Assembly (NCBI RefSeq): GCF_000379125.1
Contig: NZ_KB900627.1
Location: forward strand, 715,748 to 771,625
Direction of reading: 5' to 3'
Length of the DNA stretch: 55,878 nucleotides
From: Methylosinus sp. LW4
Lineage (GTDB): Bacteria > Pseudomonadota > Alphaproteobacteria > Rhizobiales > Beijerinckiaceae
Every line of letters begins with the position of its first letter. Position 1 is the first letter of the stretch. A model generated the notes under the pieces. The model did not search any database and had not been told where the DNA came from. It saw only the letters and a list, made by a program, of their open reading frames with translations. A program made the translations under genes and the position numbers. This document shows positions 10,136 to 45,167 of the stretch, in pieces.

Positions 10136-12760
10136 TCAGAATTCGAACTTCAGTGACCCGACGATGTTGAAGGGCGCGCCCCAGGTCCTACCATTGATGA
10201 CATTGTAGTTCGACGACGGCAGGGTCTGCACGCGGGCGAATGTGTAATAAGAGCGATCGAAGATATTCGTGGCGTTGATCTGCGCCGTTGTCTTCACCCC
10301 GTCGAGATCGAAGCTGTAGGCCGCCATCAGATCGACGAGCCCGTAGGACCAGAGCAGAGGGACCGCGCCGACTCTCCCGGCGGTGACGTCAAACGGCGGC
10401 TGCGAGCCGTGATAGGTGTAGCCGGCGCCGACCTTCAGCCCCTTTAGCTCTGGCACCTGAAATTCATAGGTCGTCCAGAGCCGCGCGAGATTGCGCGGCA
10501 CATTGGGGTAGCGCTGGCCGGGCTTCAAACCGCTTTGTTGAGTGCCCTCGGCGACGCGAACGTCCTGGTTCGTATAATTGAGGATCACGTTCCAGCCCGG
10601 CAGCAGCTCGCCTTGAATGTCGATCTCTGGACCAGAGCTTCGCGCCTTGCCAACGAGAGAGATACAGGACGGCGTGCCGTTGCAGAGATGAGTCGCGTCC
10701 GGATCGGATATCGGAACATTGGTCTTGACTAGATTGTAATAGTCGATATTGGCGCGCAGCCTTCCGTCGAAGAACTCGAACTTCGCGCCTGCCTCCCAGC
10801 TCTCGGCGTCCGTGGGCGGCGCAGGCGTGCCGGGATAGATCGTGCCGGAATTCGCGGCGAACCCTTCCGTGTAGTTGCCATAGAGGCTCACCCAAGATTG
10901 CGGACGCCAGAGCAAGCCGAAACGCGGCGTGACGCGGGCCATGTGGGCCGGTATGCCGGAGTTCGACACGGGCCCCGACACGAACGACGCCGATCTACTC
11001 GCAAGCGTGTTCCACTGAAAAACGTACTGATAGCGGGCCCCGGCCATCACATGGAAACCGTATGGCAGCTCGATTTGGTCCTGCACATAGACGCCGGCCG
11101 TGTCCTGCCGATTGTACGATTCCTGGTGATTGGTTGAAGTCAGCGGTGAGGCAGGAACCCCAGGAAAGATGGGATTCAGCAGGCTGATGGCCGACCAGCC
11201 CCAAGGAACGAAGCCTTGACTGATCGATGCGGAAGTGAATCGAGAGTAGTCGCCGCCGAGCAGCAGAGTGTTCTTGGCTCCGAGCAGATCGAAATGGCCG
11301 ACGAGATCCTGATTGGTCTGCCAAGACGACATTTGTGTCGTCGAATATGAAGTACCCAGCGTGATCAACGGGTTGGAGCCCGCGCTTGTCGATAACGCCG
11401 GGTCGGTTATCGCGTTGCTGTTCGTGCTGTAAAACGTGACCCGCGATCTGAGTGACCAGTCATCATTGAAATTATGCGCTCCTGTCAGCGCCGCATAGAC
11501 TGTCGGCTGAAATGCTTGGCCAAATCCATAGAGGCTCGTGTTGCGTGGCGTGTCTAAGAACGTTCCGTTGATCGACGCAGCACGGAATTCATAAAGGCTC
11601 GACAGGTCGTTGCTGTAATTTACCTCCGCCTTTATCCAGGTGTCGTTGTCGATCTGCCATTTGACGACCGGCGCGACAAAAAAATTCCGGCTGTGCGTTC
11701 GGTCGATGACGGAGCCGAAGGGTGCGCCGTTGTTCTCATAGGACATGTCGACCCTGTACAGCACCGACTTGTCGCTGGTGACCGGGCCCGTGGCGCTGAG
11801 GCTCGTGCGGTAGAATGCCAACGCCCCGATCTGCTGCTGGATGGCGTAATGAGGCGTGTCCAGGGGGGCCCGAGTCGTGATGTTGACGATGCCTCCGGGC
11901 TCGGAAAGTCCGTAGAGAATAGCGGCGGGGCCTTTCAGCAGCTCGATTCCGCCGATGTTGGCGAATTGTTTCGTGCCGGCGATATCTATTGTGCCGGCGC
12001 CATTCGTAGTGACGCCGGTGACCCGAACCCCGTCCTGGTAGAACTCCTGCGTCGCGAAGCCGCGAACAAAAAAGCCAGCAGTTCTCTGTGACGTTTGCCC
12101 GAGAGCTTCGACGATGGTGACGCCGCTGACATTCTGCAAGGCGTCCCTCAATGTCGTCGCCTGCTGGTCCTCGAGCGCTTTCTGCGTGATCGTCTGCACG
12201 TTGATCGGAGTATTCATGACCGGCGTGTCGGTCTTGGTCGCCGTGGAGGCGTTCGGCACGACATAGCTGTTCTGCGAGGTGAGGCCCTCGCCCTTTCCGC
12301 TGCCCGGCCCACCCGCCCGCGGCCGTTCCGCCCCTATGTCGATCGCCGGCAGCGCCTCCGCCCCGGCGTCGCTGCGCACGCCCGTGTCGTTCTGCGCCAG
12401 CACGATGAACACGTCACGCTGATTGTCGGCGAGGCGGTAGCCGAGACCCGTCCCCGCCAGCAGCCGATCGAGCGCGCCGCCGAGCGTGTAGTCTCCGGCT
12501 AACCCACTCGTCTTCACATTGCGTGTGAGCCCGGCCAGGAACACCAATTGCAGGCCATTCTGTTCAGCGATGCGGGCCAGCGCCATGCCGACCGATCCGG
12601 CTGGAATGCGATAGGATTTCACTTCGGCGGCGATCTCCGCGGCCGGCATGCGGGCGTGGGCGGACGCCGGCGCATCGCCGCCGAATGCGAGAACCCCCAT
12701 CGCCGCCGCCAGAACCGCGCTCATACGCTCGTCCTTTCGACCGAAATCCTTGCGCCTCAT
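10136..12760 (-). CDS. TonB-dependent siderophore receptor with STN signalling domain
   Basis: 874-aa outer membrane receptor of the FecA/FpvA/FhuE group. After the signal peptide comes an STN domain (residues about 45-120, YRIPAGSVGMALARIAEQ...), which contacts FecR in the periplasm. A plug follows (INVQTITQKALEDQQATTLRDALQNV cut at about residue 190-260, RGF and YQDGVR landmarks), then a 22-strand barrel ending in KFEF with the terminal Phe typical of Omp proteins. A TonB-box-like LPAIDI lies before the plug. The start at 12760 gives a positively charged n-region; an ATG 12 codons later also has an SD (AAAGGA). It is preceded by fecR and fecI genes, so its expression is probably ligand-induced. 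Confidence 0.92.
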   Translation of the reverse strand: MRRKDFGRKDERMSAVLAAAMGVLAFGGDAPASAHARMPAAEIAAEVKSYRIPAGSVGMALARIAEQNGLQLVFLAGLTRNVKTSGLAGDYTLGGALDRLLAGTGLGYRLADNQRDVFIVLAQNDTGVRSDAGAEALPAIDIGAERPRAGGPGSGKGEGLTSQNSYVVPNASTATKTDTPVMNTPINVQTITQKALEDQQATTLRDALQNVSGVTIVEALGQTSQRTAGFFVRGFATQEFYQDGVRVTGVTTNGAGTIDIAGTKQFANIGGIELLKGPAAILYGLSEPGGIVNITTRAPLDTPHYAIQQQIGALAFYRTSLSATGPVTSDKSVLYRVDMSYENNGAPFGSVIDRTHSRNFFVAPVVKWQIDNDTWIKAEVNYSNDLSSLYEFRAASINGTFLDTPRNTSLYGFGQAFQPTVYAALTGAHNFNDDWSLRSRVTFYSTNSNAITDPALSTSAGSNPLITLGTSYSTTQMSSWQTNQDLVGHFDLLGAKNTLLLGGDYSRFTSASISQGFVPWGWSAISLLNPIFPGVPASPLTSTNHQESYNRQDTAGVYVQDQIELPYGFHVMAGARYQYVFQWNTLASRSASFVSGPVSNSGIPAHMARVTPRFGLLWRPQSWVSLYGNYTEGFAANSGTIYPGTPAPPTDAESWEAGAKFEFFDGRLRANIDYYNLVKTNVPISDPDATHLCNGTPSCISLVGKARSSGPEIDIQGELLPGWNVILNYTNQDVRVAEGTQQSGLKPGQRYPNVPRNLARLWTTYEFQVPELKGLKVGAGYTYHGSQPPFDVTAGRVGAVPLLWSYGLVDLMAAYSFDLDGVKTTAQINATNIFDRSYYTFARVQTLPSSNYNVINGRTWGAPFNIVGSLKFEF

Positions 12761-12902
12761 CCGCCGCCCCCTCGCTCGATTGCCGGGGGACGAATGCGCC
12801 CCCTATTAAGGAGGACGGCCGGTGGAGACGTTTGGAAGGGTCGGGTAAGCGAAATATTTTCACTTTTTCGACGCAACCGACGGCGCCGCGCCGCGCCATT
12901 TC

Positions 12903-13838
12903 TCAGTTATATATATAAATCAGATAGCTACTGAGAGAGAGCGTCTTCACGCCCAGCGCGGCTTCGAGAGCGCTCGCGGCGCCGATCGGATTTGCAGCGT
13001 CGAAGGAGCCCGTCACGCGCAGGCCCCGCAGGGAGGGCGCTGCGAACAGGAAGCCCCTGTGATAGCGGCCGAGCGTCGCCAGCACGTCGGCGAGCGGCGC
13101 ATCCTCGAAGACCAGGCGTCCGCGCCGCCAGCCGCCGACGCGAAAGAGATCGACCGGCGACGGCTCGGTGGTCCGCGCGTCGGCGCCGAAGCGGCTCTGC
13201 CGGCCCTCCTCCACAATGGTGCGGGCGTCGCCGCTCGTCACGGCCACTCTGTGCTCGGCGACGGCGACCTCGGCATGGGTCTTGTCCTCGAGCGCGATGT
13301 CGAAGGCCGTGCCGAGCGCGGTCACGGTCGCACCCGCCGCCTCCACAACAAAGGGGCGCGCCGCGTTCGGCGCCGCCTCGAAATAGGCTTCGCCGGCGAG
13401 CAGAGCGATGCGCCGCTCGCCGGCGCTGTAATGTATAGTGAGGGCGGATCGCGCCGAGAGATGGGCGTGCGAGCCGTCCGCCAGTTCGACCACGCGGGTC
13501 TCGCCGACGCCGGTGAGGACGTCGGCGCGAAAGCGCAGAGCGATCTCGTCGAAGAACAGAAACGCCGCCAGCGAGGCGGCGAGCAGCGCCGCGAATGGCG
13601 TGATCCGCGCCGGCCTTTTCGCAAGACCGGGCCGGCCTCCGGTCCAGAGCTCCTGCACGTCGTCGAAGAGACGCGAGGCCTCGTCGAAAGCGGCACGATG
13701 CGACGGATCGGCGGCGAGCCAGGCGTCGAGAGCCGCGCGATCGGCTGCCGAGAGCGGCCCGGCGTCGCATTTGACCCACCAGGCAAGCGCCGCCGCGGAA
13801 GGATCGCCGTCACGGTTCGGCTCGTCGTCACGGCTCAT
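12903..13838 (-). CDS. fecR: FecR-family anti-sigma/signal transducer
   Basis: 311-aa transmembrane regulator that relays receptor occupancy to the ECF sigma factor. The N-terminal cytoplasmic part carries the DUF4880-type motif AAALAWWVKCDAGPLSAADRAALDAWL and PSHRAAFDEASRLF. One membrane helix (about residues 90-110) is followed by the FecR domain (GETRVVELADGSHAHLSARSAL, LLAGEAYFEA, VTALGTAFDI) and a C-terminal STN-like tail. I chose ATG 13838, where the domain begins and a GGAGGC lies upstream, instead of a frame opening at 13925. It stands between sigma and receptor genes in the canonical order. Confidence 0.9.
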   Translation of the reverse strand: MSRDDEPNRDGDPSAAALAWWVKCDAGPLSAADRAALDAWLAADPSHRAAFDEASRLFDDVQELWTGGRPGLAKRPARITPFAALLAASLAAFLFFDEIALRFRADVLTGVGETRVVELADGSHAHLSARSALTIHYSAGERRIALLAGEAYFEAAPNAARPFVVEAAGATVTALGTAFDIALEDKTHAEVAVAEHRVAVTSGDARTIVEEGRQSRFGADARTTEPSPVDLFRVGGWRRGRLVFEDAPLADVLATLGRYHRGFLFAAPSLRGLRVTGSFDAANPIGAASALEAALGVKTLSLSSYLIYIYN

Positions 13839-13970
13839 CGGAAAATCATCGCCTCCGGCGCTGGATTTCGGCGGGACAGCCTCGGGCCGCGCATGCGAGC
13901 GGTCGCTGGCGCGTCGCCCCCTCACTTTCTTAGACGCCCGAGACGCGAGAATGGAAGGGTCGGCGCCCGC

Positions 13971-14474
13971 CTATTTTATCGCCGCGCGGCACCGCTCCAT
14001 GGCGAGATGAAAGTGCTGCTCGACCGTCTTGCGCGAAATTCCCAGTTTGATGGCGATGTCGCGCTGCGACATGTTCTGGCTGACCCGCATCTCGAAAATC
14101 TCCCGGCAGCGAGGCGGCAGCGAGGCGACTGTTTCGGCCAGTCGCGCCGAACGTTGCGCGTGCTCGATGAGATTGTCGGCGCCGGGCTCGTCCGAAGCGG
14201 CGTCGATCGACTCCGCGCTCGCGGGGTCGACGAGCTTTTGCTCGCGGTCACGATGGCGCGCGAAATCATTCGCGAGATTTCCAGCGGTACGGCGCAGATA
14301 GGCGGGCGGGTCGACGATCTCCGCCGTCGTCTCGCGGCTCAAGAGGCGCACGAAGGTCTCCTGAAGGAGGTCGGGCGCGTTCTCGCGGCCCACGCGCCGA
14401 TTCAAATATCGCAAGAGCGCACGCCGGTTGCTCAGGAAGAGCTCACGGAAAGAAGCTGATGTCTTGTCCACCAT
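13971..14474 (-). CDS. fecI: FecI-type ECF sigma-70 factor
   Basis: 167-aa extracytoplasmic-function sigma factor. Region 2 is visible as LLRYLNRRVGRENAPDLLQETFVRLL and region 4 as SLPPRCREIFEMRVSQNMSQ followed by a helix-turn-helix (IAIKLGISRKTVEQHF). I start it at ATG 14474 (MVDKTSASF), because the upstream 116 codons of the open frame are Arg-rich and unlike any sigma factor. It is expected to direct transcription of the receptor gene two positions downstream when FecR is activated. No Fur box was evident by eye upstream. Confidence 0.9.
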   Translation of the reverse strand: MVDKTSASFRELFLSNRRALLRYLNRRVGRENAPDLLQETFVRLLSRETTAEIVDPPAYLRRTAGNLANDFARHRDREQKLVDPASAESIDAASDEPGADNLIEHAQRSARLAETVASLPPRCREIFEMRVSQNMSQRDIAIKLGISRKTVEQHFHLAMERCRAAIK

Positions 14475-14626
14475 ATGGGGCTTCCGATGGCAGATCGGGG
14501 GGGCGACGCCGATGTCAGGGATTTCCCGTTCATTCAGCGCCCAGAAATGGGCGGATCGCGAAGATGAGGAATCGTCCCGTTCGCCGGGGAAGCGGCTCGA
14601 GCGCAGACGCGCATAGTATCGAGCGA

Positions 14627-15025
14627 TCAGCCGACCGGCGGCGCGCGCGACGACCAGGAACTGATCCACCCGGCCGGCGACGATTGCTCGACGATCGGAA
14701 AAACATCGCCTCGAGCGAACGACGCGGCCAGGATGGAGAGGCCTAGGGCGATTGGAATGGCCGAGAGCGTTTCCTGGGGGCCATCCAGCTGACCGGACCG
14801 GCATGGAACGCAGCAAGAGCAAGAAAAATGAGGCCCTGGGGAATGGCGGTGGTCATGGACGTCGTCGAGGCCGCCGCAATCGCCGACGTCCAGAGGGGCG
14901 ACCCCGCGGTCCATTCCATGGGACCGAGCGGCGGCGGTCATGCCGGACAAGACGAGAGCCCAAGCCATGAGGCCCGCAATCAATAGGCGGGTGATTCCCA
15001 TCGGCCGGAGCGTGAGCTTTTCCAT
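14627..15025 (-). CDS. Small Cys/His-rich exported or membrane protein (DUF2946-like)
   Basis: 132-aa protein with an N-terminal hydrophobic segment (LLIAGLMAWALVLSGMTAAA) that reads as a signal peptide or anchor. The middle has His and Cys clusters (DDVHDHRHSPGPHFSCSCCVPC), a second hydrophobic stretch (AIPIALGLSILAASF) follows, and it ends in SSRAPPVG. This layout resembles DUF2946-type proteins often found beside TonB-dependent metal receptors, but I am not certain of the family. The clustered Cys and His suggest metal binding, possibly copper. It lies 150 bp upstream of fecI on the same strand and could head the metallophore operon. Confidence 0.6.
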   Translation of the reverse strand: MEKLTLRPMGITRLLIAGLMAWALVLSGMTAAARSHGMDRGVAPLDVGDCGGLDDVHDHRHSPGPHFSCSCCVPCRSGQLDGPQETLSAIPIALGLSILAASFARGDVFPIVEQSSPAGWISSWSSRAPPVG

Positions 15026-15572
15026 CCTGCCTACGGAACCCCCCGACGCTTCGCAGAGTCAAGGCCGGGGGCTGGCGGACCAGCGAAAGCCCTTTCTCTG
15101 TTGCAGAAACGCAACACAGCATGAAGAGCGGTTTTTTGCGGCAGTTGTAATTCTCGGCCGCCCCCGAGACGGAGCGTATTTTTCACCGAAGCACGACGCA
15201 TTCCATTCCCGGCGGCCATGACGCGACAGCAGATCCGGGAATGTCGGCTATCGGCGAAACCGGACGTCGGCCCCGAGGGCTGGACGCGGCCGTTTAGGGT
15301 CATAGTTCCTCCTTCGCCCTCGGGAACGGCCAAGGGGCGCCAGGAGCGGACCTACGCCAGATCCCGCGTTCGATCATCTTTTTTCGCTTCACCATCCCGC
15401 GGGGAGCTACACTCTTTCTCCTCATCGGCCCCGTGGCGCCACGAATAGGCACCCTGGCAATCACCCGCCCACACGTCGTCTTTGCAGCTTCCCGTTGAGA
15501 TTCGCCGCTCTGGCAATAAACGAGAGAAAGGGCGATCGCGGTCATTCATCTATTGGACGACGTTAGGGAAGT
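15026..15572. other. Intergenic region with dispersed repeat copy 1
   Basis: 547 bp at the edge of the GC-rich metallophore locus and the AT-richer island. A minus-strand frame of 100 codons (15031-15333) starts inside the dispersed repeat at 15298-15342, but nothing in it is recognisable. No other gene is supported. Confidence 0.5.
15298..15342 (-). repeat. Dispersed short repeat, copy 1
   Basis: Plus-strand ggtcatagttcctccttcgc followed by cctcgggaacggccaagggg and cgcca. It is nearly identical to 45109-45153. Read on the minus strand it ends with aaggaggaactatgacc, a strong Shine-Dalgarno plus ATG. Confidence 0.75.
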
Positions 15573-17054
15573 TTATTCCACGCTTAAACCAAATTGCCTT
15601 TCGAGTATATCAACTAAACATTCCACCTTCCGATCAGGAAGCTTCCACACACACAAGTGATTAGGGTCAGAGGCTGCGGTAGGACAAAAGAATGGCGTTC
15701 CAAATTTTAGCGGGCACCGAATCGCGGGCGCAAATATAGCTTGCATAAGTATTGAGTGGACTGTAATACAATCTATTGCTCTTGGAACAAAAATATCAGG
15801 CTGTTTAGTATGTAAGTTGTAAAATACAATAGACTGTCGCGCTCTAGATACAATCCTATTTAATCCTCCTGTTGTAATTAGCTCTATTGGGAATATGCTT
15901 GCTCCAATATCGCGCCGTATTTTTAGCGCGTCTCGGTGAGCCTTTAGCGCGCCCCCCATGAGAGCTCGTTCCCAAGGGAGCTGTTTCAGAATATTGTCTG
16001 CAACAGCAAATGCCTTGTCCGCCATCCAAGTGGGGGACGGCAGCCCAACGCATGCGCACAGCTCCTTGGAGAACCTCTCAATCTCCGCCGGTTCCGCGCT
16101 TTCGATAGGCCTCAATTTTGGTAGAGCATTGCAGACGGTGACAAACGTTTCACCTGGGTAGCAATCTCCTCGGCCCTGCTCATCTACAATATCCCATGGA
16201 ACATCATAAAGAATAAAAGGGTCATACATGAGCGCAATGTCGATGCACACCGAAAGGGTCGGGAGCAGGGTGTCGAGACGACAAAAGCCAGACTGCAAAA
16301 CATACAAGATGACAGCCCAATATTCATTGCCTTCTGGGAGGTAATTAAGTGCCTCGGCGAGATCGCATCTCAGGGCATTTTGCAAATGACTTAACTCGCA
16401 TACTACAGCATAAGCCTCCATAAGCGACGCTGCGTTTAATGCGATCTGAGCTAACCCATCCTCTGTTGCAACCTCGATTATTGGAATTTTTTTGATGTGT
16501 GCCCCTATCGAAACAAGGAACTTTATGAACTCATCCTTCTCGATAGACTCTCTATCCGCTGGTGTGATTGAAAAGTGAGGAGACCAAGGCTCCATTCTCA
16601 CCGATACGGTCAGCCCAGAGAGACATTTCTTCAGGGGATCAAAATTTTGGCTTATCGATAGCTGATCCATTGCATCAGCCAACATAAAACAGTGACCGTA
16701 CATAGTTTTTTCATCTTCTGATAGAGACTCTAGCCGGCTGTGAAGATTTTGAAAAATCGGCAGCGGCCATCCTCGCTTTGTAGACAAATTGCGCAGGCAA
16801 ATGAGCGTATAGCGAAGAGTTCTCAGCCCAAAAGAAGAGCTAATGAATTGACTGAAGTGGGCGCACTCATGAAAAAATGTCAATGATGTAGAAAACTTAT
16901 TCCTCACTTCTATTGATATTGGCTGAGTGATTGGATAAGGTTGCATGGATGCCTCTGCTTCCAGCACAGAGGACTCTATGCCTATTGCATACGCAAAAGG
17001 GGAATACGCTCCCGCCTCAATTCGGCTATTTCCTAGTATGTTTTTTAGATGCAT
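15573..17054 (-). CDS. Uncharacterised protein with HExxH metallopeptidase-like motif
   Basis: 493-aa protein of unknown function. FFHECAHFSQF places an HExxH motif at residues 62-66, and SLMEAYAVVCEL supplies a glutamate at residue 213 that could be the third zinc ligand, a pattern seen in several poorly described gluzincin-like families. There is no signal peptide or membrane helix, so it is probably cytosolic. Base composition is visibly more AT-rich than the flanking loci, suggesting separate acquisition. It begins 19 bases after the stop of the 242-aa gene at 17074-17802 on the same strand, so the two form a tight pair. I cannot name its substrate; the partner is an obvious candidate. 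Confidence 0.75.
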   Translation of the reverse strand: MHLKNILGNSRIEAGAYSPFAYAIGIESSVLEAEASMQPYPITQPISIEVRNKFSTSLTFFHECAHFSQFISSSFGLRTLRYTLICLRNLSTKRGWPLPIFQNLHSRLESLSEDEKTMYGHCFMLADAMDQLSISQNFDPLKKCLSGLTVSVRMEPWSPHFSITPADRESIEKDEFIKFLVSIGAHIKKIPIIEVATEDGLAQIALNAASLMEAYAVVCELSHLQNALRCDLAEALNYLPEGNEYWAVILYVLQSGFCRLDTLLPTLSVCIDIALMYDPFILYDVPWDIVDEQGRGDCYPGETFVTVCNALPKLRPIESAEPAEIERFSKELCACVGLPSPTWMADKAFAVADNILKQLPWERALMGGALKAHRDALKIRRDIGASIFPIELITTGGLNRIVSRARQSIVFYNLHTKQPDIFVPRAIDCITVHSILMQAIFAPAIRCPLKFGTPFFCPTAASDPNHLCVWKLPDRKVECLVDILERQFGLSVE

Positions 17055-17073
17055 GTCCTAAGAAGTCCTGAAT

Positions 17074-17802
17074 TTAGTACAGTTGACCAAAGAATAAACT
17101 ATCCTGGTCTGTAGCATTCTCTGCATCGGCACTGCGTCCGAGTGTAATCGGCTTGAAATCTTTTGGAAAACCTGGAAAGGGACTTTGGATCTTGCAAACC
17201 CCGATGAGCGGGACAAGTCCTTCCTCGGCCACGAGTTGAAACCCGATATTGCTTTGAGACAGCAATTGGACCTTTGCTGACGCGTCTGCAAGATCAATCA
17301 AAGGCTGTTCCGCTGAGCCCTCAAGGATCAATGACGAATTGTCGCCGCCAGAAATAGCAACAGTTGTCGAGCCCGCGCGAACCAAATCCGTCACAACTAC
17401 CCACGACAACTTCCAAGAAGTCGCGCGATACATTTGCATAATCTGGCGACCGAGGGCCGGCTTATCAGTAACTTGCCTGTGCCGGCAGCCAGCCGCATTG
17501 AAAAATACTGCATCATTGCCGCGAAAAGTTACTTCCATCCTGGCTTTTGCGTAAGCGGTGCCTTTTGCGTGAAGCTTGATATCGGTGCTTCCTTCGGACG
17601 AAAACGTCATACGATCCGATCGGGTATCCTCCCGCTGCTCAAAATTCACACCCTGATCACGAACATTTCCAAGATGTAGAAAGGTGACCCCGTGCATGAG
17701 CCCGTAATCGCCGATTTCAACGGGTCGCCCAGGTTCCCAGTTTGCGAAAAAGGGCCGGAAGTTCTCATGAATTACTTTCGTATATGCATCTACGATGGTC
17801 AT
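17074..17802 (-). CDS. Uncharacterised protein, partner of HExxH protein
   Basis: 242-aa protein, not recognised. The start is ATG 17802 with GGAG six bases upstream; a GTG directly before it is the alternative. The N-terminal part has FFANWEPGRPVEIGDYGLMHGVTFLHLGN cut by a conserved-looking GDYG turn. The middle alternates short hydrophobic strands (ARMEVTFRGNDAVFF, WVVVTDLVRAGSTTVAIS), suggesting a beta-rich fold. No signal peptide, transmembrane helix or catalytic motif is obvious. Being first in the two-gene cassette, it could be a sensor, inhibitor or protease-activated effector for the HExxH protein; this is inference from position only. Confidence 0.7.
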   Translation of the reverse strand: MTIVDAYTKVIHENFRPFFANWEPGRPVEIGDYGLMHGVTFLHLGNVRDQGVNFEQREDTRSDRMTFSSEGSTDIKLHAKGTAYAKARMEVTFRGNDAVFFNAAGCRHRQVTDKPALGRQIMQMYRATSWKLSWVVVTDLVRAGSTTVAISGGDNSSLILEGSAEQPLIDLADASAKVQLLSQSNIGFQLVAEEGLVPLIGVCKIQSPFPGFPKDFKPITLGRSADAENATDQDSLFFGQLY

Positions 17803-18257
17803 CACCAGCTCCGCTGGAGTGAGTTTGTTCCGCCCAAAGCGACCCGTTGGCCGAGGCTTGCAGGAACTGCATTCGACGCGTAACAGAATGCGTCAACCAG
17901 TGCCAGCAGCAGTTCGCCAACTGGCTCCCCCGAGCTTAATGGCAGCTTGCGCTCCGCACAAGGCGGAGGGGTGCCGGAAAGCGTCACCGGGACGCATGGT
18001 TGTAGGGCAGAGATGGGTCAGAGTTCCTCGTTCGCCGCCTCGAAAGGAGGTTGTGCCAGAAGCCGCCATTCGATCTGATACGACGCGTGCAGCAAAGGCC
18101 GGACAGAGAGAAAATCCGCTTTGTATAATCAGGCGACAAATGCCGCCCTTGGTTTTAGACCAAGCAACCGTTTTTCGTACGCTACGACTTGTAGCAGTAG
18201 GACGACGGGCCACCTTTCGACTTGACTACTGCTGCATCTTAGAACACAGCATAAAGG
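17803..18257. other. Intergenic region with dispersed repeat copy 4
   Basis: 455 bp between divergent genes. It contains a diverged repeat copy at 18016-18073. Several overlapping frames exist on both strands but none shows convincing protein character. The promoter of the two-gene cassette should lie here. Confidence 0.5.
18016..18073 (-). repeat. Dispersed short repeat, diverged copy 4
   Basis: ggtcagagttcctcgttcgc then cgcctcgaaaggaggttgtg and ccagaagccgccattcga, following the same order of landmarks as the other copies with several substitutions. Confidence 0.6.
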
Positions 18258-19001
18258 GTGCGCCGAGCATCTCTCATCTCCTTAGTCCTTCTACTCACCA
18301 GTTGCGGTCCGGGCGACAAGACGGTGTTTAGCTCGCGCGCGTCCCCAGACGGATCTCTGGTCGCGGAGAACGTGATGTTAGGCGACGGCGAGACGGGGGG
18401 CCAGCTTGTGATCCGTGCGAGAGATGGGACCGAGCGGCACTTCGATTTCGCCGATACCGCGCCGAACCTCTTTCTGAGATGGATTGACGACCAGCAACTG
18501 GAAGTCTGGAGCGAAAGGCAGAAGCTGGACTTCGGAAAGAATCCGAGCCTAGGCGATGTTCGAATTGTTCCGAAATCATATGAATTCCCGCAAGATGGCG
18601 CGAACGCATATAGTCGTCTTGGTCTCAACACGCGAAGTGTAGCCGTACCCAGCGGGAAAGTCGTCGTAACATTTGCTAACCAGACAAAGGTGGCGGCGCG
18701 CCTCTGCGTCCTCACGATCGGCACGGCTCCAGACCCCGCCTACGACACAGCAAACGTTGAGATAACCGCTTTCGTCAACCCGGTCTGCAACCGCGCCCGG
18801 CCCTGCGCCGCCATCTCTACACGTTTCACCCTTGAGGACGAGCATCGCACGACCCCTCAGGTGACGTTGACTTCGGCGACAGTCTCGGAAATACCGTCCT
18901 ACAACCGTCTCCCGACTGGTGCCGACGGGACCTCGATTAGGGGCAATTTCTCGAGACGGCGGCGGCGACCCTGGTCGACAATCTCATGGGCGACTTCGTA
19001 A
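18258..19001 (+). CDS. Putative lipoprotein of unknown function
   Basis: 247-aa protein starting at GTG 18258, with a lipoprotein signal (LVLLLTSC, Cys16) and a mature part that opens SRASPDGSLVAENVMLGDG, a pattern seen in DUF5412-like periplasmic proteins. Up to about residue 200 it reads as a plausible protein. The last 30 residues (RRRRRPWSTISW) do not: in another frame, 18950-19138 reads ETAAATLVDNLMGDFVTL..., which looks more natural and ends in a stop at 19138. A frameshift near 18850-18950 is possible but I could not place it. No function can be assigned. Confidence 0.6.
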   Translation: MRRASLISLVLLLTSCGPGDKTVFSSRASPDGSLVAENVMLGDGETGGQLVIRARDGTERHFDFADTAPNLFLRWIDDQQLEVWSERQKLDFGKNPSLGDVRIVPKSYEFPQDGANAYSRLGLNTRSVAVPSGKVVVTFANQTKVAARLCVLTIGTAPDPAYDTANVEITAFVNPVCNRARPCAAISTRFTLEDEHRTTPQVTLTSATVSEIPSYNRLPTGADGTSIRGNFSRRRRRPWSTISWATS

Positions 19002-19403
19002 CGCTCGACTTCTCGCGGAATTTTTTTGACGAAGTGATCAGGTACACTCTACCGCTCTCTACCGCCGTAGAGCCGATAGGCCAATTTCAGGTCTGCTTGG
19101 GCAACGCCGACATACTCTGGATTCGGCACGGGCCCTGACGCTCATAGACATGTCCGAAACGGGATGGAGGTGCTGCGTCCTTGTCGCGATCAAAGCTTGG
19201 TACGAAAGGTGGAGTCTGTCGCGGCTCGACCCGACCCATCGAAACGGCACTAATGGGTCAAAATGTCCGCTCGCCCACAGCCTTTTGCACGAGATGAAGC
19301 GATCAGGCTGAACATTTTAACGTGCCCAACGCGACATCTGGCTTGAGCTTTTATGACGGGAAGTTACACTCCGCTAGTGACATTCGAAGCAGAATGAGCC
19401 CCC
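19002..19403. other. Intergenic, may include frameshifted tail of lipoprotein
   Basis: 402 bp. The part up to 19138 is open in an alternative frame with protein-like composition (see the lipoprotein gene). Beyond that I see nothing recognisable. Confidence 0.4.
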
Positions 19404-19799
19404 ATGGCATATGTGCACGCCCCCAACAGTCTAGTGAGAGTGTTTGACCCGGATACCGGTCATTGCCTCCGACAGGAAATAAGGGACATTCCCTTTCCTG
19501 CGAGACAATACGAGCTTCGACTGGATTCTGACAACCACCGATCCCCGACGTTTGTTCTGCGAGGATATTGGCGAGGGATACCAGAAAAGCAATTATTTGA
19601 GATCTATTTTCCTTTCCAAAATATTGAAAAATCTTACAAAACAGCCTTGTATCTCAGATCTGACCACAGACCATCTTTCGAGTGGTTTAAAGAAGTGATA
19701 ATCCCCGAGTTTCGCGAAGCGATTCTCTGTATCCTAAGTTATCTTGACGCAGAAAGAGAGAAAAGGCGCATACCGACAATCCTTACCTTCGAAGTTTGA
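19404..19799 (+). CDS. Uncharacterised 131-aa protein
   Basis: Soluble, charged protein with no signal peptide and no family I recognise. It has a beta-like N-terminal half (LVRVFDPDTGHCLRQEIRDI) and a helical C-terminus (WFKEVIIPEFREAILCILSYLDAEREKRR). Composition is AT-richer than the surroundings, like the HExxH cassette. It stands alone between the lipoprotein and LprI-like genes. Length, composition and sensible residue use make it likely to be a real gene. Confidence 0.6.
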   Translation: MAYVHAPNSLVRVFDPDTGHCLRQEIRDIPFPARQYELRLDSDNHRSPTFVLRGYWRGIPEKQLFEIYFPFQNIEKSYKTALYLRSDHRPSFEWFKEVIIPEFREAILCILSYLDAEREKRRIPTILTFEV

Positions 19800-19828
19800 G
19801 TTTTGATATCACCCTGATATAACATGGC

Positions 19829-19906
19829 CCGACATGGCGGAGCATAGAGTTGCGACACGTTAAGGACTAATATCCATCCTACTTCCGCGAAATGTCGCCA
19901 TGTCGG
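19829..19906. repeat. Inverted repeat upstream of LprI-like gene
   Basis: ccgacatggcg (19829-19839) and cgccatgtcgg (19896-19906) form a perfect 11-bp inverted repeat with a 56-bp spacer. It lies 40-120 bp before the next start codon and could be a paired operator. Confidence 0.5.
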
Positions 19907-19947
19907 CTTAACACAGACTCACTCGTCTTCCGTGGCAAAGGACGACC

Positions 19948-21002
19948 ATGGACCGGGCCATATTATCAGGTCTTTTATCGACGCTCTTTTTCGTGGTGGC
20001 CTTTCCCTCCTGCGCCATGGCCGCCAGCTTCGATTGCGCCCAGGCGACGACGATGCGCGAGAAGCTGATCTGCCGCGACCGAAGCTTATCTGATCTCGAT
20101 ACACGCCTCGCCCGGCTCTACAGGGAGCGGCGTGGCTTGCTCAGTCGCAACGGAGCCGAACAGCTTCGACTTTCGCAGGCGAGCTGGATTGGATTCATCG
20201 ATATCATCTGTCCATCGAACCCTCCTGAGCATGCATTCAGATCACGACCGCAAGTACAATGCCTGGACGCTCGATATCGTGAGCGTCTCGACCAGCTCTC
20301 GGAAGTGGGACGGAAGCTCGGCCCTTTCGTTATCAATCGCATCGATCATTATGCTGCCTATCTGCGCCTGCCACGGATGATACCGGGGGTATGCCCGGAT
20401 TTTACATTCGGCATATCGCCTACCCACAGATTGACAATCTTGAGACTTCCTTAGCTGTCTCCTGGAACAAGAGGGTAAAGGAGACGATCGAACTGAGGGA
20501 GGACGATTTATGCAATGACGGCGGGGCTGACTGTAACATAGACTATCGGATCGACTATGCTAGCGACGAACTGATCAGCACCGCTTGGCTCTATGATAGA
20601 TATGAGCACGGCGCGGCCCACGGAACATTCTGGAGCAATGTCGATAATATCTTATTTCGTGCAGAGCTGCGTGAGTTAAGAACTTCCGATCTTTTCGGAC
20701 CGGACGAACGGTGGTTCACCGAATTTCAGCGGCTCGTGTGGAACGAACTGCGTAAGCAGCGATGGAGCCCACCCGACGATGCCAATGGCGAGGCCAAGGC
20801 GGACCTCCTCGCGGCGAGCCTTCAACCTACAAAATGGGCCTTGAGCGCGAACGGAATTCGCATCGATTTCAATGCGTATGAAGGCGGCTGCTACGCTTGT
20901 ACCCCTCGTGAACCTGTTGAATTATCTTGGGCAGAACTCGAACAACTTCGCTCGCCGGATTCTATTTTGCGCGAACTCCGCAAGGAGCGTGATAACCGAT
21001 AG
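19948..21002 (+). pseudogene. LprI-like (DUF1311)/DUF3298 protein, broken by frameshift
   Basis: Two adjoining frames appear to be one gene. The first (19948-20454) has a signal peptide ending in CAMAAS and an LprI/DUF1311 region (SFDCAQATTMREKLICRDRSLSDLD), known from lysozyme-inhibitor lipoproteins. The second (20391-21002) carries a DUF3298/RsiV-like domain (IDYASDELISTAWLYDRYEHGAAHGTF). The switch falls at about 20384-20391, where a run of five G (accgggggtatg) invites slippage or a one-base indel. The start ATG 19948 has AAAGGA upstream. The second half could also be translated from its own ATG, so two separate proteins cannot be excluded. A sequencing error is a third option. Confidence 0.65.
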
Positions 21003-21099
21003 AAACATTGTAGCGCCCGCCACTTTGCAGAAAGGAGTACTTTGAAGGCCGCGCTCGAACAAACGACGACGCCAACGTCGCCGTCGGAGCTCTCTTCGT

Positions 21100-21164
21100 A
21101 GGGGTTCTGCTTTACCGGCCCCAACGGCCAAGGGGCGCCAAAAGCTGTCATCGGCACTGGCCGG
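21100..21164 (-). repeat. Dispersed short repeat, diverged copy 6
   Basis: Shares aacggccaaggggcgcca and a following gctgtcat with copies 1 and 2; the upstream half is diverged. Confidence 0.5.
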
Positions 21165-21192
21165 TGAGGTCGACCTCTAATATCGTCAGGGC

Positions 21193-21747
21193 ATGGGAAC
21201 TGATCCATTTCGACCGTTAGAGACGACCCGCCTCCTTTTGCGCTGCGTCGTTGCCGACGACGCCGTAGCGACGGCCATGATGATGACGCCGGAAGTCAGC
21301 CGATGGGTGGCTTATTGGCCCGTCCCTTTCACCTACGAAATGGCGGTTGCTCGTATCGAGGCCGCCCGCGAATGGGCTCGCAGGGGCGACGCGCTGCCGT
21401 TCGCCGTGACCGACAAAGCAGCCAACGGCGACCTAATCGGGTGGGTGATGATCTACCGAGACGAAGAGAATCGTCGGCGCGGATCTCTCGGCTATTGGTT
21501 TGGCGAGAAGCACCATGGCAAGGGCTACATGAGGGAACTTGCACCTATAGCGTTGGCGGCAGGTTTCGACCTGCTCGATCTCGACGTGATCGAGGCCGCC
21601 GCGCAACCGGAAAATGCAGCGTCGATTGCCGTCATGAAGGCTTGTGGAATGAAGCCGACTGGGGAAGGGATGGTCTACGCACCCGCCCGGGAGCGCCATG
21701 AACTTTGCCACTTCTATGAGGTTCAGCGTCCTCGCGCCCTGGCTTGA
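21193..21747 (+). CDS. GNAT-family N-acetyltransferase, RimJ/RimL type
   Basis: 184-aa acetyltransferase likely to acetylate the N-terminus of a protein or a small amine using acetyl-CoA. The fold is visible as TTRLLLRCVVADDA, IGWVMIYRDEENRRRGSLGYWFGEKHHGKGYMRE (acetyl-CoA-binding motif A region) and VIEAAAQPENAASIAVMKACGM, the usual C-terminal motif. Length matches the RimJ/RimL subgroup. It stands alone with a repeat on each side, so neighbours do not indicate a substrate. Confidence 0.9.
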   Translation: MGTDPFRPLETTRLLLRCVVADDAVATAMMMTPEVSRWVAYWPVPFTYEMAVARIEAAREWARRGDALPFAVTDKAANGDLIGWVMIYRDEENRRRGSLGYWFGEKHHGKGYMRELAPIALAAGFDLLDLDVIEAAAQPENAASIAVMKACGMKPTGEGMVYAPARERHELCHFYEVQRPRALA

Positions 21748-21831
21748 AAGTCCGCCAGCCTTTTTTCCCTGAAATTCGGGCCTCGTGCTCCGAACAACGT
21801 CTACGGGTCATCAAAGAGCAATGTCCCTTCG

Positions 21832-21891
21832 GGTCATAGTTCGCCGCTCGCCGTCTCGAAACGGCGAGGTCGCGCCATAAGCCGTCATTCG
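21832..21891 (-). repeat. Dispersed short repeat, copy 3
   Basis: Contains a near-perfect palindrome, cgccgtctcgaaacggcg, at 21849-21866, followed by gcgccataagccgtcattcg, matching copy 2 at its end. This copy shows the hairpin potential of the family best. Confidence 0.65.
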
Positions 21892-21962
21892 GTGCCCCTT
21901 GCTCTTTACAGAACCTCGAGAAGTCGCGCGATCGCTCTGGCGTGGTTGGGCCATGGGGGCTT

Positions 21963-22202
21963 TCAAAGAACCAATGCCTCGACGCCCTTGTTCGCCTTCG
22001 GCACGGCATCGGCCGCCAACGCCGGGATGTTCATGCCCTCGACGCGAATCACCTGCACATCCGTGATGCCGATGAAGCCGAGGATTAGCCGCAGGTAAGG
22101 CTCGACGAAATCCCATGAACGCCAGCGCCCGTCCGTGAAGACGCCGCCTGAGGCCAGGATCAGAATGGCCTTTTTGTTCTTCGCCAGACCGAGCGCTCCG
22201 CC
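21963..22202 (-). pseudogene. azoR: FMN-dependent azoreductase, C-terminal part (split by IS21)
   Basis: C-terminal 79 codons of an AcpD/AzoR-type flavodoxin-fold quinone/azo reductase: GGALGLAKNKKAILILASGGVF, then FVEPYLRLILGFIGITDVQVIRVEGM, a family hallmark. The N-terminal part is at 24546-24917. Removing the IS21 element at 22203-24545 and one copy of the flanking GCC restores the frame TFQYAEG-GALGLAK. The gene is therefore inactivated by the insertion. Confidence 0.85.
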
Positions 22203-22348
22203 TGTGAGTGCCGGGCGTAAACTCCCCAAATGTGCCGATTGAAAATTCCCCAGTTTTCGTGACGCCGGGCCTTCCAGGGCATGCCCTGGAAGGCCCGGCG
22301 ACGCGCCAATTCGCCGATGCTGCTCCCCTCGGCGGGAGGGAGGGCGCG

Positions 22349-23614
22349 GTGATCAAACTCGGGGAAATTGTCATGATCCTGGAACTACATCGTCAGGGCG
22401 TCTCGGTGTCCGCCATTGCGCGCCAGCTCGGAATCGACCGGAAGACCGTCCGCAAGCACATCGCCGCGGGGCTGGCGGCGCCCAGCTACAAAGCCAGACC
22501 GCCGCGCGAGCGCGCGATCGCGTCCTTCGAGGCCTATCTGCGGGAGCGCCTCGCCGCCTATCCGGCCTTGAGCGGCCGTCGGCTGTGGCGGGAGATTAAG
22601 GGGCATGGATATGCCGGCGGCTATACCGCTGTCACCGACCTGCTGCGTGAGCTTCGCCCGCCGCGTCCCAAAGGCTTCGAGGTCCGCTTCGAAACCCCGC
22701 CTGGAGAGCAGGCGCAGGTCGACTTCGCCCGCTTCGACCTCGAGTTCCTCGACGCGCCCGGCGTCAAGCGCATCGTCTGGCTCTTTTCCATGGTCCTCGG
22801 CCATTCCCGCTTCATCTGGGCGCGCTTCGTCCTGCATCAGGACATGCAGAGCGTCCTGCGCTGCCACATGGCCGCCTTCGAGGCGCTCGGCGGCGTTCCC
22901 CGCGAAATCCTCTACGACCGCATGAAGACCGCTGTCATCGGCGAAGACCCGGACGGTCTCGTCGTCTACAATCGCACGCTACTCGATCTCGCCCGCCATT
23001 ACGGTTTCCGGCCGCGCGCCTGCAAAGCCTATCGCGCGAAAACGAAGGGGAAGGTCGAGCGGCCGTTCCGCTATATCCGCGAGGATTTTTTCCTCGGCGG
23101 CTCCTTCCGCGATCTCGACGATCTGAATGCTCAGCTCCGGAACTGGCTCGATACGATCGCCAATCCGCGCGTCCATGCCACGACGAAGCGCGTCGTCGAC
23201 GAGGCCTTCGCCGAAGAGAAGGCGGCGCTCGAAGCTTTGCCTGCCATGGCTTATCAGGCGGTGCTGCGGCTCGAACGACGCGCCTCGCATGAAGGCATGG
23301 TCAGCGTCGGCGGCAATCTCTACAGCGTGCCGGACACCACGCGGCGGCGCGTCCTCGACGTCCATGTCTTCGCCGACGCGATCCGCATCTTCGAGGACGG
23401 CGAGCTGATCGCCACACATGCGCCGCTCGAAAGCCGCGGCGAGAAGTGTCTCGATCCGGCGCATCGCCGAACGCCGTCGCCAGCGCCGGGCCGACGCCCG
23501 CCCGAAGAGCCGCAGCCCGTGTTGCGGCGTGCCGGCGATCATGCCGCGCGGCGCCCTCTGGCCTTCTATGACGCGGTGGGCCGCCGCCTGGCCGCGCAGG
23601 GAGGCTCACGATGA
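22349..23614 (+). CDS. istA: IS21-family transposase IstA
   Basis: 421-aa DDE transposase. An N-terminal helix-turn-helix ([27 protein letters not shown]) is followed by the integrase core: [13 protein letters not shown] gives the first Asp, [11 protein letters not shown] the second, [15 protein letters not shown] the Glu. A C-terminal beta domain ([14 protein letters not shown]) is typical. I start it at GTG 22349 with a GGGAGGGAGGG upstream, rather than at an ATG near the IS tip. It overlaps istB by four bases (ATGA). Confidence 0.92.
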
Positions 23615-24477
23615 ACGCCGCTCCCTCCGCGATCATCGACCGCGTCAAACGCAATCTCGTCGGCCTGAGGATGCCGCGCGCCCTCGAGATCCTCGACGTC
23701 ACCCTGCGCGCCGTCGAGCGCGGCGAAGCCACGGCGCTCGATGTCGTCGACATTCTCCTCGCCGAGGAACTCACCCTGCGTGAGAACCGCCGCGTCCGGA
23801 TGGCTCTTCAGATGGCGCGCCTCTCCGCCGTCAAAACGCTTGCCGGCTTCGACTTCTCCTTCCAGCCCTCGCTCGACAAGAGCCGCGTCATGGCGCTCGC
23901 CGAGTTGCAGTTCATCGACCGCGCCGAAGCCGTCCATCTCATCGGCCCGCCCGGCACGGGGAAAACCCATCTCGGCCTGGCGCTCGGCGTCGAAGCGGTC
24001 AAAGCCGGCCGCAGCGTCTACTTCGCCTCCCTCGCCGACATCATCGCGGTGCTCGCCAGAGCCGAGCGCGAGGGAACGCTGCGGGAGAAGATCCGCTACT
24101 TCTGCCGGTTCGCGCTGCTGATCGTCGACGAGATCGGCTATCTGCCGGTCACGCCGGGCGGCGGCAATCTGTTCTTCCAGCTCGTCAACGCCCGCTATGA
24201 GAAAGGCGCGATGATCCTCACCTCGAACCGCGGCTTCGCGGAATGGGGCGACATCTTCGGCGACGCCGTCGTCGCCACGGCGCTTCTCGACCGCCTCCTA
24301 CATCATGCCGTCGTCTTCCAAATCGAAGGCTCCAGCTATCGCCTGCGCGAGCACGCTGACCTCTTGCCCGAACATGTTCGGACAAAAGCCAGCATTCAGC
24401 CGGCGCCGATCCCGCCGACGCTCAGGCGCCGCGGACGACCGCCCAAAAACGGAGGAGCAGATCACATCGACGGCTGA
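23611..24477 (+). CDS. istB: IS21-family helper ATPase IstB
   Basis: 288-aa AAA+ ATPase, partner of the IstA encoded directly upstream. Walker [10 protein letters not shown] lies near residue 115 and the Walker B region [16 protein letters not shown] near residue 172. Translational coupling through the ATGA overlap is the standard istAB arrangement. It shares fold but not close sequence with the window-end IstB copies. A basic tail ([11 protein letters not shown]) ends the protein. Confidence 0.93.
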
Positions 24478-45108: not shown

Positions 45109-45167
45109 GGTCACAGTTCCTCCTTCGCCTTCGGGAACGGCCAAGGGGCGCCATAATCGGTCATTCG
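45109..45167 (-). repeat. Dispersed short repeat, copy 2
   Basis: ggtcacagttcctccttcgc, then cttcgggaacggccaagggg and cgccataatcggtcattcg. It differs from copy 1 at only two or three positions over the first 45 bases. It lies just past the end of the decayed 121-aa-family gene. Confidence 0.75.

Follow-up and report, generated by a model that had tools for sequence, protein, structure and literature searches.

Gasdermins are proteins that kill inflamed human cells. In the bacterial gasdermins (bGSDMs) a short C-terminal peptide keeps the protein inactive and a protease cut before this peptide frees the pore former (PMC9079055; likewise PMC10989679), and the N-terminal cysteine, which is conserved in most bGSDMs, is palmitoylated (PMC9079055). 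Three further studies describe bacterial gasdermins as rare (0.5% of prokaryotic genomes; PMC11249213), report clusters of gasdermin-like structures lacking a Pfam annotation, some of them fused to proteases (PMC10584675), and present bacterial antiviral nuclease-protease pairs in which a trypsin-like or caspase protease activates a nuclease zymogen (PMC12799240). Here we analysed a stretch of 55,878 nucleotides from Methylosinus sp. LW4 (contig NZ_KB900627.1), referred to as the window, which contains a pair of genes predicted to encode a gasdermin-like protein (P0002) and a protein with a HExxH motif (P0001). We favour, with moderate confidence, the interpretation that the pair represents a horizontally acquired two-gene cell-suicide module in which the HExxH protein activates a divergent gasdermin.

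Both genes are located head-to-tail on the minus strand, the gene for P0002 (17074-17805) being the first and that for P0001 (15573-17054; 493 amino acids, ATG start) the second, with a spacer of 19 bp between them. P0002 comprises 243 amino acids if translated from the GTG at position 17805 and 242 if translated from the ATG at 17802, which is the very next codon. Both open reading frames (ORFs) and their spacing were confirmed as given in a preliminary description of this DNA, and they are regarded as real coding genes because both belong to conserved protein families, with 18 other HExxH proteins and 75 other proteins related to the partner. The preliminary description had also called the pair AT-rich and unlike its surroundings, in agreement with a G+C content of 47.2% compared to 61.7% in the window, which is the minimum among all tiles of 2230 bp (step 50 bp). 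The individual values are 45.8% for the HExxH gene and 50.3% for the partner gene.

According to its predicted structure model P0002 very likely adopts the gasdermin fold, as recognised by its pore-forming domain, and would presumably form pores after activation. The MACPF/CDC fold was also considered and tentatively ranked below gasdermin in the structure comparison. The protein had previously been characterised as beta-rich and devoid of a known motif, which holds at the sequence level but misses the recognisable gasdermin fold. The bGSDM model of PADLOC matches nine of the 76 family members at E-values of up to 1 (best 3.2e-4), and the profile of the partner family alignment (A2) retrieved 7n50 from the PDB at E 0.74. 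Neither P0002 nor P0001 gave a useful match in Pfam, PADLOC, NCBIfam or PHROGs; a match to phrog_25097 (E 0.23) was discarded, as were 16 scattered Pfam families, each matched by a single one of the 76 A2 members (best 1.6e-4) and regarded as chance hits. The bGSDM model was detected in two of 247 genomes of the phylum of Flavobacterium and in none of 121 genomes of the order of the host, the latter search having no positive control. In viral contigs no relatives were found with the A2 profile or with that of the HExxH family (A1), nor were any P0002 relatives found in phages.

The C-terminal region of P0002 ends in the tail LFFGQLY (residues 237-243; 17077..17097, minus strand), a candidate autoinhibitory peptide that is conserved as LxFGQL, with L237 present in 72%, F239 in 96% and Q241 in 79% of the 76 members. 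In the model a strand predicted at residues 238-241 follows a linker of low predicted local distance difference test (pLDDT) values, of which residues 216-228 (17122..17160, minus strand; pLDDT < 50) are predicted to be flexible and form a candidate cleavage region. Between residues 219 and 237 the sequence of the linker is variable, with a length of 16-30 residues in 73 of the 76 members. Inhibition by the tail and cleavage within the linker are candidate properties of P0002.

The second protein, P0001, carries the motif HECAH at residues 62-66 (16857..16871, minus strand), located within a predicted helix (residues 48-71) as expected for a zincin or gluzincin. This motif and Glu213 as candidate third zinc ligand (16416..16418, minus strand; predicted helix 208-228) had both been pointed out in the preliminary description, and H62, E63, H66 and E213 proved to be identical in all 19 aligned sequences of A1, as are Q69, E220 and N226. 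In the gluzincin class the HExxH motif is combined with a glutamate ligand on a second helix. The arrangement in P0001 fits a gluzincin-type site, which makes it a candidate of this type as far as sequence and model indicate. P0001 may bind zinc, and motif and context suggest that it acts as a protease. Furthermore, four cysteines close to the C-terminus (C447, C457, C468 and C479; 15618..15716, minus strand) are invariant in all 18 members of A1 that reach this region and in every one of the 19 sequences of A4, the alignment of the HExxH family without the fragment P0020, and may represent a second zinc site.

The HExxH family appears to be a new one. P0001 matched no family in Pfam, NCBIfam, PADLOC or PHROG and no fold in the PDB, the search of the PDB with the A1 profile yielded nothing, and no significant match was obtained between its model and viral structures. 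Structure searches with the model returned unrelated helical proteins only, so that no family is claimed. A first search identified 18 relatives, to which a second one with A4 added only a Hymenobacter protein; the sub-threshold match of the latter to NCBIfam TIGR01295 (E 0.0013, 18.7 of 120 bits) was discarded. The A1 profile detected none of 396 genomes in the phylum of Pyrinomonas and none of 395 in that of Flavobacterium, results of little weight since they come without a positive control. Given that P0001 resembles no peptidase family and no solved fold, it might not be a protease at all; its HExxH/E213 site and cysteine cluster could instead have a structural function or one that depends on metal in a different way, such as sensing, leaving the activation of the pore former to a host protease. 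This seems unlikely considering that H62, E63, H66 and E213 are all invariant, that the HExxH motif and E213 both lie on predicted helices, and that another HExxH protein without detectable similarity adjoins a further member of the P0002 family (locus L018).

Protease-like genes are found beside several other relatives of P0002. We compared 18 loci, comprising the window, three plasmids and 14 genome contigs (a fifteenth one, L022, was dropped because it had only an 87-base match at its edge), and subjected 25 of the 197 neighbouring ORFs, picked by adjacency and size, together with two additional ones of L004 to a Pfam scan. In eight of the 18 loci, the window included, an adjacent gene on the same strand at a distance of 3-182 bp shows evidence of encoding a protease, three of them above the Pfam cut-offs, namely TPR-CHAT proteins in L005 and L012 and a papain-type C1 peptidase in L017. 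Matches below the cut-offs were obtained for a C92/YaeF-like neighbour in L009, which is followed by a subtilase, and for L006 with a transglutaminase-like neighbour and a partial match to antiphage_ProA. The neighbour in L013 reads as trypsin-like from the motifs WHVL, DVA and DSGS, with Nal1_C at E 0.033 and a MiiA motif below the cut-off; its matches in the PDB are mixed, NS3-type serine proteases (E 0.25) ranking behind a dehydratase (0.19). In L018 the gene directly downstream of the P0002 relative (10835-12847) encodes a protein of 670 amino acids that is gluzincin-like by its motifs HETTH (191) and HEAIAD (217) and has no significant match in Pfam, PADLOC, NCBIfam or the PDB (one irrelevant match each in Pfam, at E 0.15, and in the PDB). 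The count of eight includes L013 and L018 largely by our own reading of motifs, and the window by HExxH and Glu213 only. As hhalign gave no significant alignment between A1 and the single protein of L018 (E 0.24), we regard these as two distinct HExxH partners; the occurrence of a different HExxH partner makes an activation by metalloproteases more plausible. At greater distance, protease genes were detected in L007 (a CHAT protein, 2.5 kb away), L010 (an A4 peptidase) and L016 (an M6 peptidase, two genes upstream). By analogy to bacterial gasdermin systems, a single effector family would be predicted to have neighbours from such a mix of protease classes.

The product of the gene directly upstream of the P0002 relative in L006 (6456-7958) has an N-terminal part which we read as TIR-like, and its C-terminal part matches a part of the NCBIfam model antiphage_ProA with an E-value of 4.1e-19, below the cut-off of that model. 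In L014 (6327-10798) the P0002 relative is located downstream of a gene for a CRISPR RAMP protein (Pfam PF03787, 1e-14), followed by ORFs that appear, by our own reading only, Cas6-, Cas2- and reverse-transcriptase-like.

In the proposed mechanism the gasdermin-like protein of 243 amino acids would be kept inactive in the resting state by its own short C-terminal tail. A trigger, e.g. phage infection, would switch on the HExxH protein, perhaps sensed via its C-terminal cysteine cluster, whereupon the HExxH protein would cut the flexible linker ahead of the tail. The freed core would then oligomerise in the membrane and form pores, and the cell would die or cease to grow. Activation of P0002 by the HExxH protein is regarded as probable, and for an anti-phage role of the pair we see about an even chance. 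Conversely, the HExxH protein could be an antidote-like protease or chaperone which restrains or clears the pore former instead of activating it. The tight pairing of the genes, resembling that of toxin-antitoxin genes, speaks for such a role, as does the lack of a visible sensor, given that an uncontrolled activating protease would kill the cell. However, the architecture of tail and linker and the CHAT proteases beside family members fit activation, and caspase-like proteases are reported to activate bacterial gasdermins (PMC9079055), which makes restraint improbable.

Several observations weigh against a gasdermin module activated by its HExxH partner. With regard to the fold, the Foldseek TM-scores of P0002 to gasdermins do not exceed 0.43 by query length, with a root mean square deviation (rmsd) of 18.1 for 8sl0, and the VIA rmsd amounts to 10.7 for 8sl0 (3.9 for 9a84). 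P0002 itself matches neither the bGSDM model (E <= 1) nor any Pfam family, and hhalign gave no significant alignment between A2 and a single canonical bGSDM (E 0.34). A cysteine within the first 15 residues occurs in one of the 76 members and is missing in P0002. The model of P0001 matches no known protease fold, so that its peptidase activity rests on the motif, and no dedicated sensor gene was seen within the pair. An adjacent protease gene on the same strand was not seen in ten of the 18 loci, a tally that does not extend to the adjacent same-strand ORFs downstream in L011, L014 and L020 and upstream in L019, and the count of eight has no background rate beside it.

Further points of this kind concern the distribution of the two families. 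The preliminary description had set the co-occurrence of the homologues beforehand as one test that could refute it, and in the genomes searched they were found not to co-occur: no relative of P0001 occurs in any of the 17 genomes or plasmids carrying a P0002 relative, the Hymenobacter plasmid encoding a P0001 relative likewise holds no relative of P0002, and the two families, as far as their matches are listed, have only the window's own contig in common. Its suggestion of a protease with a partner of the toxin or anti-phage type stands as regards a protease-like gene, with its invariant HExxH and Glu213, beside an effector gene, whereas the gasdermin mechanism had not been recognised and the exact pair did not recur where it was looked for. 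The missing co-occurrence, together with a dispersed repeat and an element that we read as IS21-like nearby, would also agree with two unrelated passengers of a low-GC island whose adjacency is accidental. Their common strand, the spacing of 19 bp, their similar composition, the protease-like neighbours in eight of 18 loci and the HExxH relative overlapping an effector-type gene in Hymenobacter render this explanation quite unlikely.

The recurring arrangement is a gasdermin-like gene beside some protease and not the exact P0001/P0002 pair; as this pair was not found elsewhere, the partners appear to be swapped rather than fixed. On the Hymenobacter plasmid (L004:11435-13401) the gene of the P0001 relative overlaps a gene for an Mrr_cat nuclease by 4 bp, and both are located downstream of genes of the FtsK/SpoIIIE, AAA-like (sub-threshold) and PAPS-reductase families. 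This gene set looks like an undescribed defence operon. P0001 is a candidate for an exchangeable activator, the nuclease case resting on one locus. More tentatively, the family might represent undescribed zinc metalloproteases, combining the HExxH/Glu213 site with a sensor of four cysteines near the C-terminus, which serve as interchangeable activators adopted by different suicide modules, here by a gasdermin clade lacking the N-terminal cysteine and in Hymenobacter by an Mrr-type nuclease.

The gene pair was likely acquired by horizontal transfer, as suggested by composition and by comparison with related genomes. The zone of low GC extends beyond the pair, from about 15.3 to 21 kb. In a BLAST comparison of positions 12500-22500 with ten genomes of the genus, its own included, the congeners align to the left of ~15.12 kb and to the right of ~21.15 kb, and among the matches listed they contribute only short repeat-like pieces in between. 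With the island as query, short pieces match four of the nine congeners, nearly all of them derived from a dispersed repeat near the left end of the island. Neither gene has a match in the DNA of the nine congeneric genomes, the A2 profile has none in any of them either, and at the level of the order both the A2 profile (one of 249 genomes) and the A1 profile (one of 297) detected the own copy alone. The edges of the low-GC zone carry identical 18-bp repeats on the plus strand, at 15325..15342 on the left and 21123..21140 on the right, with a third copy at 45136-45153.

The dispersed repeat is located at 15230-15350 (also at 18012 and 21828), and incomplete copies of it occur in the genome of strain LW4 as well as in four congeners. 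Beside the low-GC zone (22208-24477) we read an IstA/IstB-like IS21 pair, the left end of which is repeated in the own genome and in one congener. Within the same zone a gene with an LprI domain overlaps one with a DUF3298 domain (19948-21002). A lipoprotein-like ORF on the opposite strand (18258-19001) adjoins the pair and shows a sub-threshold match (E 0.12) to a model of a type VI secretion system immunity lipoprotein.

To our knowledge, no metalloprotease-triggered bacterial gasdermin has been described so far. A search by title and abstract start in the open-licence PMC literature found none among the matches listed, which is not a proof of absence. If the proposed mechanism is true, P0001 and P0002 would form the first such system known to us, and it would show that the catalytic chemistry of the releasing protease does not matter to gasdermins. 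It would also raise the question how infection is sensed by a module of two genes neither of which is a dedicated sensor. Since the family escapes Pfam and PADLOC matches nine of its 76 members, pyroptosis-like modules are presumably undercounted.

In comparison with known systems, P0001 resembles the gluzincin metallopeptidases in its HExxH motif and the invariant, MEAYA-type Glu213, but differs from them in lacking a match to any family or fold, in the 146 residues between His66 and Glu213 and in its invariant C-terminal cysteine cluster, which may bind zinc. The pair shares the proposed combination of a protease with an effector zymogen with the nuclease-protease pairs of PMC12799240, and the gene of one HExxH relative (L004) overlaps that of an Mrr-type nuclease; in those pairs, however, the protease is trypsin-like or a caspase, and the effector in the window is gasdermin-like. 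As in the clusters of PMC10584675, so far as the available portion of that work describes them, the gasdermin-like domain is recognised by structure and has no Pfam annotation, whereas a HExxH partner is not mentioned in that portion; these un-annotated clusters could include the P0002 family. Unlike the bGSDMs, P0002 escapes both Pfam and PADLOC, and 75 of the 76 members of its family have no cysteine in the first 15 residues. P0002 agrees with the bGSDMs of Runella, Bradyrhizobium, Vitiosangium and Lysobacter in its gasdermin fold of ~240-260 residues, which lacks the large repressor domain of the mammalian proteins. Its short C-terminal tail, preceded by a linker predicted to be flexible, and the protease-like genes next to several members of its family likewise resemble these systems, but where the bGSDMs are accompanied by a caspase-like or trypsin-like protease (PMC9079055) its partner is a HExxH protein of a new family.
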